The notes under the pieces were generated by a model, which ran no database searches, was not told the origin of the DNA, and was given only the letters and a program-made list of their open reading frames with translations. Shown here one piece after another: positions 3,857 through 7,849 of a stretch of DNA of 64,000 nt. Made by a program: the position numbers and the translations under genes. Origin of the DNA: Psychroserpens damuponensis (GTDB lineage: Bacteria; Bacteroidota; Bacteroidia; Flavobacteriales; Flavobacteriaceae). The stretch spans positions 124,001 through 188,000 of the forward strand of contig NZ_JXJO01000016.1 in NCBI RefSeq assembly GCF_000826655.1, read 5' to 3'. Position 1 is the stretch's first letter. Each line of letters opens with the position of its first letter.

Positions 3857-4672
3857 TTAAACCGCAACATCATACTCACGCAACGCATCATTAAGCGACG
3901 TTTTCTTATTCGTGCTTTCTTTACGTTTACCTATAATTAGTGCACATGGTACTTGGTATTCACCTGCAGCAAATTTTTTGGTATAACTGCCAGGAATAAC
4001 TACTGATCGTGCAGGAACTCTACCTTTCATTTCAATAGGTTCTTCACCTGTAACATCAATAATTTTTGTACTCATGGTTAACACTACATTAGCACCTAAA
4101 ACAGCTTCTTTTTCAACATGAACACCTTCTACGACAATACAACGTGACCCAATAAATGCACCATCTTCAATAATCACTGGAGCAGCTTGTAAAGGTTCTA
4201 AAACACCACCAATACCAACACCACCAGAGAGATGTACGTTTTTGCCAATTTGTGCACAGCTACCAACAGTTGCCCAAGTATCAACCATAGTGCCTTCATC
4301 AACATAGGCACCAATATTTACATAACTAGGCATTAAAATTGTACCAGAAGAAATATAAGCACCATGACGAGCTACAGCATTTGGTACCACTCGTATACCT
4401 CTTTTTTGATAATCACGTTTTAAAGGAATTTTATCATGATACTCAAAAATACCAGCTTCTAGAGTTTCCATTTTTTGAATAGGGAAATATAATACAACTG
4501 CTTTTTTTACCCATTCGTTAACTTGCCAACCATCAACTGTGGGCTCAGCAACTCTTAAAGTACCTTCGTCTAATAAATCTATAACGCTTCTAATACTATC
4601 AATAGTGAGTTGATCTGTTAATAAAGATCTATCATCCCAAGCGCCTTCTATAATGTTTTGTAGTTGTTTCAT
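3857..4672 (-). CDS. dapD: 2,3,4,5-tetrahydropyridine-2,6-dicarboxylate N-succinyltransferase
   Basis: A 271-residue cytosolic trimeric enzyme that succinylates tetrahydrodipicolinate in the succinylase branch of the lysine/diaminopimelate pathway. The N-terminal helical part ends near 90 (VVPNAVARHGAYI), followed by a left-handed beta helix of hexapeptide repeats (YVNIGAYVDEGTMVDTWATVG, then IGGVLEPLQAAPVIIEDGAFIGSRC). The length equals the family norm. The start at 4672 is supported by a TATATTTG box 25 bases upstream on the same strand. The gene stands alone; the rest of the lysine pathway is not in the window. Confidence 0.97.
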   Translation of the reverse strand: MKQLQNIIEGAWDDRSLLTDQLTIDSIRSVIDLLDEGTLRVAEPTVDGWQVNEWVKKAVVLYFPIQKMETLEAGIFEYHDKIPLKRDYQKRGIRVVPNAVARHGAYISSGTILMPSYVNIGAYVDEGTMVDTWATVGSCAQIGKNVHLSGGVGIGGVLEPLQAAPVIIEDGAFIGSRCIVVEGVHVEKEAVLGANVVLTMSTKIIDVTGEEPIEMKGRVPARSVVIPGSYTKKFAAGEYQVPCALIIGKRKESTNKKTSLNDALREYDVAV

Positions 4673-4696
4673 TGTATTTTATATCTGCTATTTGTA

Positions 4697-4704
4697 CAAA
4701 TATA
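4697..4704 (-). promoter_or_regulatory. -7 promoter element TATATTTG for dapD
   Basis: Read on the minus strand (CAAATATA on the plus strand), it matches TAnnTTTG and lies 25 bases upstream of the dapD start, giving a leader of about 20 nt. Confidence 0.6.
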
Positions 4705-4755
4705 AGCCTATAATTTTGTTGAGTAAATTCAGAATAAATAAAAAAATAAAAAATA

Positions 4756-4899
4756 ATGTGACCTATCCATAAAAGAGGTGTCTTATTAGTGTGAATTATT
4801 ATTTACCGAGTATTTTCCCTAAACTAATACTTGGATGCTTTAATAATTAATAGCTAATTTTTGTAAAACCCTCCTATCCCTTAGGAGGGTTTTCTTTTT
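4756..4899 (+). ncRNA. Candidate small RNA unit 1 of a three-unit tandem array
   Basis: The unit opens with ATGTGACCTAT at 4756 and GTGTCTTA at 4778. It ends in an intrinsic terminator: a perfect 12-bp stem AAAACCCTCCTA (4865-4876) / TAGGAGGGTTTT (4882-4893) with loop TCCCT, followed by CTTTTT. There is no open frame of note between. The two 5' blocks recur with identical 22-base spacing in units 2 and 3 and look like the -35 and -10 of an alternative (ECF-type) promoter; transcription would then start near 4790 and give an RNA of about 105 nt. No expression evidence exists here. Confidence 0.6.
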
Positions 4900-4920
4900 A
4901 AAATTAACGCTTAAAATAAA

Positions 4921-5055
4921 ATGTGACCTGTTACATGTTGAGGTGTCTAAATGTGTAGTTGACAGTAAATTAGAGAATGCCTTATACCTCCTGCATTAAT
5001 ATAAATGCAATTCAAAAAAAAGTCTTTCTTAACCTCAAGAAAGGCTTTTTTGTAT
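4921..5055 (+). ncRNA. Candidate small RNA unit 2 of the tandem array
   Basis: Opens with ATGTGACCTGT at 4921 and GTGTCTAA at 4943. It contains a small hairpin TGCATT/AATGCA at 4992-5009 and ends in an intrinsic terminator with stem AAAAAGTCTTTCTT / AAGAAAGGCTTTTT (about 5017-5030 and 5038-5051, one G-U pair), then T-rich sequence. The start lies 165 bases after that of unit 1. The body between head and terminator shows little similarity to units 1 and 3, so head and terminator are conserved while the middle diverges. Confidence 0.6.
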
Positions 5056-5079
5056 TAATTTAAATGTTTTTCTTCTGAA

Positions 5080-5219
5080 ATGTGACTTATTAAAAACTAT
5101 CGTGTCTTAAAAAATATATCATGAATTGTTTAAGGTAGAGGGTAGGCAATTTCATGTTATTAATTGATAGTTGATTATTTTGAAACTCTTCTTTAGTTTT
5201 TAAAGAAGAGTTTTTTTTG
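5080..5219 (+). ncRNA. Candidate small RNA unit 3 of the tandem array
   Basis: Opens with ATGTGACTTAT at 5080 and GTGTCTTA at 5102, 159 bases after unit 2. It ends in a perfect 13-bp terminator stem AAACTCTTCTTTA (5183-5195) / TAAAGAAGAGTTT (5201-5213) followed by eight T in all. The body contains a purine-rich AGGTAGAGGGTAGG stretch. The next gene, ruvX, has its own -7 box at 5254, so this unit is not simply its leader. Confidence 0.6.
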
Positions 5220-5253
5220 TTGCATTAAGATGGGTAACTCAATTAATAAGAAT

Positions 5254-5261
5254 TAACTTTG
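5254..5261 (+). promoter_or_regulatory. -7 promoter element TAACTTTG for ruvX, only 4 bases before the ATG
   Basis: Perfect TAnnTTTG match ending four bases before the start codon. With the usual distance from box to transcription start, the mRNA would begin at or within a base or two of the ATG, i.e. a leaderless message. Confidence 0.5.
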
Positions 5262-5265
5262 TAGT

Positions 5266-5679
5266 ATGGCGAGAGTTTTAGCATTAGATTACGGTACAAA
5301 ACGAACAGGTATAGCAGTCACAGACGAGCTACAGATTATAGCTTCAGGCTTGACAACAGTTAACACTAAGGAGTTGATCGTGTTCTTAAAACAGTATATT
5401 TCCGAAGAAAACGTAGAATTATTTGTCGTTGGAGAACCAAAACAAATGAATAATGAAGCCTCTGAAAGTGAAGCGTCTATCGCTAAATTTTTAATAAGCT
5501 TAGAAAAAGCGATTCCGCAAATACCAATAAAACGTGTTGATGAACGCTTTACATCTAAAATGGCGTTTCAAACGATGATTGATAGTGGACTCAAAAAAAA
5601 ACAACGACAAAATAAAGCCTTAATAGATGAGATTAGCGCAACAATTATATTACAGACATATTTGCAAAATCCATCTTAA
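5266..5679 (+). CDS. ruvX: Putative pre-16S rRNA nuclease / Holliday junction resolvase-like protein YqgF
   Basis: A 137-residue RNase H-fold protein of the YqgF/RuvX family, essential in many bacteria for final 5' maturation of 16S rRNA. ALDYGTKRTGIAVTD at 6-20 carries the first catalytic Asp, VVGEPKQMNN replaces the usual VVGLP strand, VDERFTSKMA near 97 carries the conserved DERxxS/T, and DEISATIILQTYL near 125-137 the last acidic residue. Length fits the family. It is followed after 65 bp by def, which has its own promoter box. Confidence 0.92.
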   Translation: MARVLALDYGTKRTGIAVTDELQIIASGLTTVNTKELIVFLKQYISEENVELFVVGEPKQMNNEASESEASIAKFLISLEKAIPQIPIKRVDERFTSKMAFQTMIDSGLKKKQRQNKALIDEISATIILQTYLQNPS

Positions 5680-7700: not shown

Positions 7701-7827
7701 AGAAACTAATTATAGTTTCTTAATCATAAGTAGGTAATCTTAATGTAGTAGTTAAGCGGACGCATTAAGATTTAAAATTTAGTTTAGTTAGGGGTAAAAT
7801 CCTGTCTGTGTATTCAGGCAGGATTTT
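7701..7827 (+). ncRNA. Candidate structured non-coding RNA with three hairpins and a terminator
   Basis: Three consecutive perfect stems lie in a gene-free stretch: AGAAACTA/TAGTTTCT (7701-7720), AATCTTAATG (7736-7745) / CATTAAGATT (7763-7772) around a 17-base loop, and AAAATCCTGTCTG / CAGGCAGGATTTT (7796-7808, 7815-7827) ending in a T-rich tract. The last can act as intrinsic terminator in either direction. The element could be an independent small RNA, the 3' UTR of mazG, or on the other strand the end of the thioredoxin transcript. Strand is uncertain. Confidence 0.45.
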
Positions 7828-7849
7828 ATTATTTATTGATAATCTACCT

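Follow-up and report, generated by a model that had tools for sequence, protein, structure and literature searches.

Between two genes of Psychroserpens damuponensis that we take from their sequences to be dapD and ruvX (Holliday junction resolvase-like, YqgF), we describe three tandem units, A, B and C, which very probably constitute the noncoding arm of an ECF regulon for membrane stress and encode three trans-acting RNAs. The units lie in a stretch of 64,000 nucleotides, which we call the window and which was analysed at its full length. According to the proposed model, each RNA (about 100-110 nt) would be made from its own promoter under the control of one autoregulated ECF sigma factor and would finish at its own terminator. 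A protein of about 58 amino acids encoded in the sigma operon could be an anti-sigma factor, membrane or osmotic stress would be the signal, and the RNAs would act by base pairing through their loops and single-stranded stretches. The loop of unit C presents UAGAGGGU, through which the RNA may, in most species of Psychroserpens, pair with the start of the sigma mRNA and so provide feedback.

The promoter motif, the regulon behind it, the co-occurrence of array and sigma gene and the conserved structure of the units were observed directly, and from the sequences we infer that the units are transcribed and that this depends on the sigma factor. A preliminary description of the locus had suggested sibling small RNAs under one alternative sigma factor, a suggestion now supported by the motif, by its presence ahead of the sigma gene itself and by the conserved bodies and terminators. 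New are the likely identity of the sigma factor, its mechanosensitive-channel operon, the conservation in several genera and a feedback target open to testing.

Architecture of the array

The three promoters were the only exact matches to TGTGAC-N15-GTGTCT in the window. When up to 2 mismatches were accepted, 7 matches were found against 2.9 expected, a number reached by 3/100 shuffles, and the remaining four carried 2 mismatches each. The A that had been noted before each motif, and the offset of 22 bases from it to GTGTCT, are correct at 4756, 4921 and 5080. An individual intrinsic terminator had also been claimed for every unit, and prediction across the array found 3, compared to 0.2 expected from shuffles. 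The bodies, described as free of coding sequence, indeed lie in an array without any ORF of at least 60 amino acids, and the inferred RNAs A, B and C gave fold z-scores of -5.5, -3.1 and -3.5 against shuffles. The coordinates of all these elements and of the flanking genes are collected in Table 1.

Table 1. Positions of the array elements and neighbouring features in the window
Feature	Position	Strand	Basis or remark
Presumed dapD, divergent neighbour	3857..4672 (start 4672)	-	ORF list
TATATTTG, a match to TAnnTTTG (sigma-A box of flavobacteria); likely dapD promoter	4697..4704	-	
Promoter of unit A, ECF-type, TGTGAC-N15-GTGTCT	4757..4783	+	exact motif match
Small RNA A (putative), ~110 nt	4790..4900	+	start inferred ~34 nt past the -35 box
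Conserved core of small RNA A, AATAATTAATAGCTAATTTT	4842-4861	+	
Terminator of A, intrinsic, perfect 12-bp stem	4865..4893	+	terminator prediction
Promoter of unit B, ECF-type, TGTGAC-N15-GTGTCT	4922..4948	+	exact motif match
Small RNA B (putative), ~100 nt	4955..5054	+	missing in several relatives
Terminator of B, intrinsic, 15 pairs including G-T	5016..5051	+	terminator prediction
Promoter of unit C, ECF-type, TGTGAC-N15-GTGTCT	5081..5107	+	exact motif match
Small RNA C (putative), ~105 nt	5115..5218 (start ~5114)	+	covarying hairpin, then AATT[AG]ATAGTTGATTATTTT
Loop octamer of the C hairpin, UAGAGGGU	5136..5143	+	complement found at codons 2-5 of the sigma mRNA
Terminator of C, intrinsic, 15 predicted pairs, or 13 bp if G-T is excluded	5182..5214	+	
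TAACTTTG, sigma-A box immediately 5' of the ruvX start	5254..5261	+	similar layout in relatives
Presumed ruvX, neighbour downstream of the array	5266..5679	+	ORF list

The bodies had been called divergent, but they are not entirely so, A and C having a 3' module in common (AATTAATAGCTAATT / AATT[AG]ATAGTTGATT). In a search of 23 sources, the model of C picked up unit A at E 7e-4, and since the C model detects A, the two units are probably old paralogs. A weak match to the same model (E 0.1) at 7735-7832 of the window, 3' of a gene that by eye looks MazG-like, is probably a terminator. No Rfam family reached its gathering score in the window; a search of 4670-5270 at E up to 5 gave 24 matches below threshold and none of them was to Flavo-1, the family singled out for a covariance search in the preliminary description, which like all the others stayed below threshold.

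The boxes listed for both neighbouring genes follow the flavobacterial sigma-A consensus TAnnTTTG, as given in the available text of PMC9723704. To judge from the position of its box, ruvX looks near-leaderless and driven by its own promoter.

The promoter motif and the ECF sigma operon

We counted exact sites of TGTGAC-N15-GTGTC and compared them with a reversed-pattern control, obtaining 12 versus 0 in the own genome, 161 versus 6 summed over 23 Psychroserpens genomes and 50 versus 1 summed over 8 genomes from 8 other genera. The three Psychroserpens genomes that lack an ortholog of the sigma factor had 4 sites versus 3 for the control; permitting one mismatch raised the background of the motif. 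Exact sites of the own genome lie upstream of mscL, of the ECF sigma gene, of an M48 peptidase and of a DUF2853 protein, while a DUF4197 protein follows another at a distance of 320 nt and some have no evident gene near downstream. Sites with one mismatch precede LysM/BON and DUF937 proteins, and several regulon proteins were found again 3' of the motif in other genera, as judged by eye. The ECF-type promoter proposed at the outset is thus borne out by the counts of 12 versus 0 and 161 versus 6 and by the motif preceding the sigma gene, and a search in relatives, advised together with it, found motif and spacing conserved with few control matches. On this sequence evidence, TGTGAC-N15-GTGTCT is a real promoter class.

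The sigma gene is on the same contig, about 254 kb from the array, with the motif 58 nt 5' of its TTG start. Orthologs (E <1e-80) were present in 23/57 genomes searched, corresponding to 20 Psychroserpens genomes (own included) plus G027, G028 and G030, and all 23 loci carry the motif upstream with at most one mismatch, 18 of them exactly. Among 22 sigma loci of other family genomes, the motif was exact in 10, had one mismatch in 6 and two in 3, and was absent in 3; this count includes the second ECF gene of G081 (L183, no motif), which was excluded from the octamer and operon counts. An operon of sigma factor, protein of about 58 amino acids and MscS-like channel was complete in 44/46 loci, and the channel was present in 46/46. 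In G014 there is, in addition, a second ECF paralog (G014:C2:216827-217381; 46% identity), preceded at 58 nt by the motif with one mismatch.

The best NCBIfam model for the sigma factor was SigX (ECF102), with 103.7 bits and therefore under its cut-off of 194. In the available text of the two accounts, SigX-CfrX-CmpX (ECF102) of Pseudomonas aeruginosa likewise sets an ECF sigma factor beside a small protein and an MscS-like channel, although in a gene order unlike that of the operon described here; the same portions mention no small-RNA arm, unlike the arm proposed here (PMC7641640, PMC8999054). In that text, P. aeruginosa SigX, together with CfrX and CmpX, figures as the only mechanosensing ECF to have been studied (PMC8999054).

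The preliminary description had also advised looking for a sigma gene that co-occurs with the array, and this ECF gene, with the same motif upstream, does so. All 20 Psychroserpens genomes with the ortholog have at least one exact array promoter beside dapD. The three without it comprise G003 and G021, which have no array, and G016, whose array is decayed, with an exact promoter at C only and the A and B promoters gone, leaving remnants. Outside the genus, the sigma factor occurred in 5/6 family genomes bearing the tandem motif (6/7 with G030) versus 13/32 others; the Fisher tests made in this work ignored phylogeny. Counter to the association, none of these 13 other genomes with the sigma factor, of 32 examined, has an exact tandem pair in a scan of 397 genomes, G270 has a tandem pair and no sigma ortholog at E<=1e-30, and G016 retains its C promoter in the absence of the sigma factor. 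In genomes without a sigma ortholog, we observed other ECF genes (L113, L114, L116) preceded by TGTAAC-N17-CGTC, which is a different type of ECF promoter.

Conservation, distribution and relatives of the units

From their positions beside dapD, in the middle and beside ruvX, respectively, A, B and C are judged to be orthologs across genomes. The hairpin of C with the UAGAGGGU loop was found in 21/21 Psychroserpens genomes with a C unit (20 at dapD plus G015 at ruvX), as confirmed by a position-based check of the octamer in each of the 23 genus genomes, of which G003 and G021 have no array. In the C alignment A1 (21 sequences, omitting G006, where no terminator was found, and G007, a near copy of G004), 97.3% of cells were paired and two-sided changes affected 8 pairs versus 3.5 in shuffles, with 0/500 shuffles reaching 8 and slid versions giving 0-2. 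In the 20 sequences of unit A, the AU-rich core on the 3' side hardly changes and the hairpin varies, with CCCUAA in its loop in 14/20 rows, and there is little covariation energy; the invariance within A1 and A2 is partly selection, because units were sorted as A or C by core words. Alignment A2 omits four rows (no terminator, or near copy) and A3 omits six B-type rows. B could be aligned in 8 genomes only and is missing from two-unit arrays such as those of G002, G011, G012, G013, G019 and G020, and one G027 unit is a composite, its loop of the C type and its 3' part of the A type.

These patterns bear on what the units are. The array stands immediately 5' of ruvX and in the same orientation, as would be expected if the units were leader or attenuator elements of ruvX (or dapD) rather than independent RNAs, but a terminator closes every unit ahead of ruvX, and ruvX has its own TAnnTTTG box beside its ATG, as it does in relatives. 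Moreover, in G015 dapD with A is apart from ruvX with B and C and the units are intact, indicating that they survive rearrangement as separate genes, and in G157, G270, G273 and G025 units with promoter and terminator adjoin other genes, all of which makes a leader function highly improbable. We also regard as very unlikely that the promoters and terminators are what matters, providing insulation or interference between dapD and ruvX, and that the RNA bodies do not. B is divergent and missing in several genomes, and the bodies of G030 and G157 are unlike those of Psychroserpens, which would suit such a role, whereas the loop octamer of C is kept in all 21 Psychroserpens genomes with C and additionally in G185 and G027, the stems of C covary, and the A core is found again in G185, G201 and G027. 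That the units code for very short peptides is scarcely credible: C contains an ATG followed by four codons and a stop in 14/21 aligned sequences, yet in the other 7/21 the ATG is lost or the frame shifted and the overlapping RNA loop is nonetheless kept, and, as stated above, the array has no ORF of at least 60 amino acids.

Independent small RNAs remain our reading of the units, and their spread was followed through the Flavobacteriaceae. The exact 20-nt core of A occurs at 26 loci in named genomes, 15/26 with an adjoining promoter motif, and 11 of these 15 belong to Psychroserpens. Exact tandem motifs were found in 9/397 family genomes from 8 genera with 0 control matches, a lower bound because only spacings of 134-164 were covered, and arrays that are wider or contain a mismatch, the one in G005 for example, escape the pattern. 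Units between dapD and ruvX are known from six genera (Psychroserpens, G027, G030 with four units, G074, G185 and G201/G381), the arrays of G074 and G381 being two further ones found by the C-model search; six other weak matches of this model were inspected and had no promoter. G270 has its pair of units away from dapD-ruvX, and in G273 and G371 one unit is followed by a second motif ahead of another transcript.

Some loci deserve a separate mention. In G157 (L160), four tandem units with the same promoter and three near-identical bodies lie at another locus and represent a separate expansion. G025 has two dispersed paralogous small-RNA-like units (L120, L123) that share the promoter and contain a stretch of GGGGAAAGG as well as terminators, and G093 has a solitary motif with a terminator (L346), whose body contains AATTAATAGCAAATTTTT, near the A core. 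Long direct repeats (AGTCTTCAGTCTTC... blocks) take the place of the array downstream of the dapD start in G021 (L069), and two small ORFs between dapD and the array of G201 (L161) have, by eye, the look of a HigB/HigA-type toxin-antitoxin pair.

ECF stress-response small-RNA arms are established in Proteobacteria and Fusobacteria. In the sigma-E noncoding arm of E. coli (MicA, RybB, MicL), small RNAs and the ECF sigma factor share one promoter type, as here. Qrr and LhrC arrays consist of sibling RNAs under one regulator, partly clustered and with one seed common to all. The preliminary description had likened the units to them, and this remains apt for siblings under one regulator but not for the loops, which are conserved and different and have no common seed; the units, being position-specific orthologs rather than copies with one shared seed, are unlike Qrr and LhrC in that respect. 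We know of no report of an RNA arm for a SigX-like module, and the openly licensed papers searched yielded none. A conserved small-RNA arm in marine Flavobacteriaceae, connected with the operon of a sigma factor and a mechanosensitive channel, would mean that the principle also holds in Bacteroidota, and the array supplies a testable set of a defined promoter motif, a regulon, three RNAs and one specific target.

As the available text of PMC11005410 reports, FoxI and FoxJ (the latter about 156 nt) are an ECF noncoding arm of Fusobacterium nucleatum. Like the array, the sigma-E and Fox arms consist of short separate RNAs; feedback on sigma activity is reported for them, and they belong to another phylum and another sigma branch. 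The array differs further in its three clustered genes, its different loops and its possible direct pairing with the sigma mRNA. The one precedent found in Bacteroidota is the putative RNA Rfp11 of Flavobacterium psychrophilum, which in the text available is placed under an ECF-type promoter (PMC9723704). That species belongs to the same family as the host of the array, but its motif SM6 contains a CGT box and is used by T9SS genes, unlike the motif described here, and for the Rfp small RNAs the available text mentions no tandem array or dapD-ruvX locus (PMC9723704). FopS/GibS of Bacteroides thetaiotaomicron are paralogous small RNAs from the same phylum, FopS being described in the accessible text as a 14-member family with one shared seed and housekeeping, sigma-A-type promoters, in contrast to the ECF-type motif of the array units (PMC11697453). 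The portions of the openly licensed literature that were covered contained no account of the array or its motif.

Candidate pairing of unit C with the sigma mRNA

The complement of the C loop, ACCCTCTA, has 60 sites in G000 and 36 in G009, one in each genome being located in the sigma gene, at offset 5 from its TTG, and among the sites inspected (60/60 and 33/36) the sigma gene was the only start-region match common to both. The exact octamer complement was present at the sigma start in 13/20 Psychroserpens orthologs, the others having ACCCTCTG (G010), ACCCTTA (five genomes) or ACCTTCA (G015), and in 0/26 loci of other genera; in seven genomes of other genera ACCCT comes one nucleotide later after TTG and thus in another reading frame. 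Codon 3 of the sigma gene is CCC in 19/20 orthologs, an unselected set, with codons 2 and 5 varying, and CCC accounts for 5.1% of proline codons in the window; a count of 13/13 for CCC is partly circular, because those 13 genomes were chosen for carrying CCCTCT.

Duplex energies with C placed the start region of the sigma gene 1st of 167 start regions of G000, a set covering part of the genome, with some genes entered twice (alternative starts) and enriched for octamer-bearing loci, while A and B did not favour the sigma mRNA, which came 79th and 30th of the 167, respectively. In per-genome shuffles, z of the C loop was negative in 14/14 ACCCTCT genomes, with p<0.05 in 7/14, and lay between -0.5 and 1.1 in the other 7 genomes tested; B in G000 (p 0.015) and A in G005 (p <0.005) also beat their shuffles. 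A long conserved target of C was considered and dropped, because of 23 matches to the 12-nt complement 16 fell on the RNA itself and the remaining 7 all lay away from gene starts, so that the start regions of the 20 genus genomes held no exact 12-nt complement. Pairing among A, B and C was rejected as too short.

The C loop complements codons 2-5 of the sigma mRNA, with an exact match in 13/20 orthologs, which suggests feedback, and we tentatively propose, as a possibility short of an even chance, that C closes a direct negative loop through these codons within the tandem small-RNA arm of a mechanosensing ECF. Slightly on the probable side is that the small RNAs are real but C has no feedback on the sigma factor, CCCTCT being kept for translation or codon effects and the true targets being other mRNAs. 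In line with this, the C loop is unchanged in the five ACCCTTA genomes and in G185 (ACCATTA), and GAGGG also occurs in units of other genera whose sigma mRNAs are without the octamer; against it stand the recurrence of the exact octamer at the same position in those 13 orthologs, the first rank of the sigma start among the 167 regions and the persistence of the rare CCC as codon 3 in 19/20. Aside from the sigma gene, two further ORFs of G000 (L260, L237) carry ACCCTCTA soon after their first start codon, one encoding a secreted-looking protein of 225 amino acids and the other a doubtful ORF of 108 amino acids.
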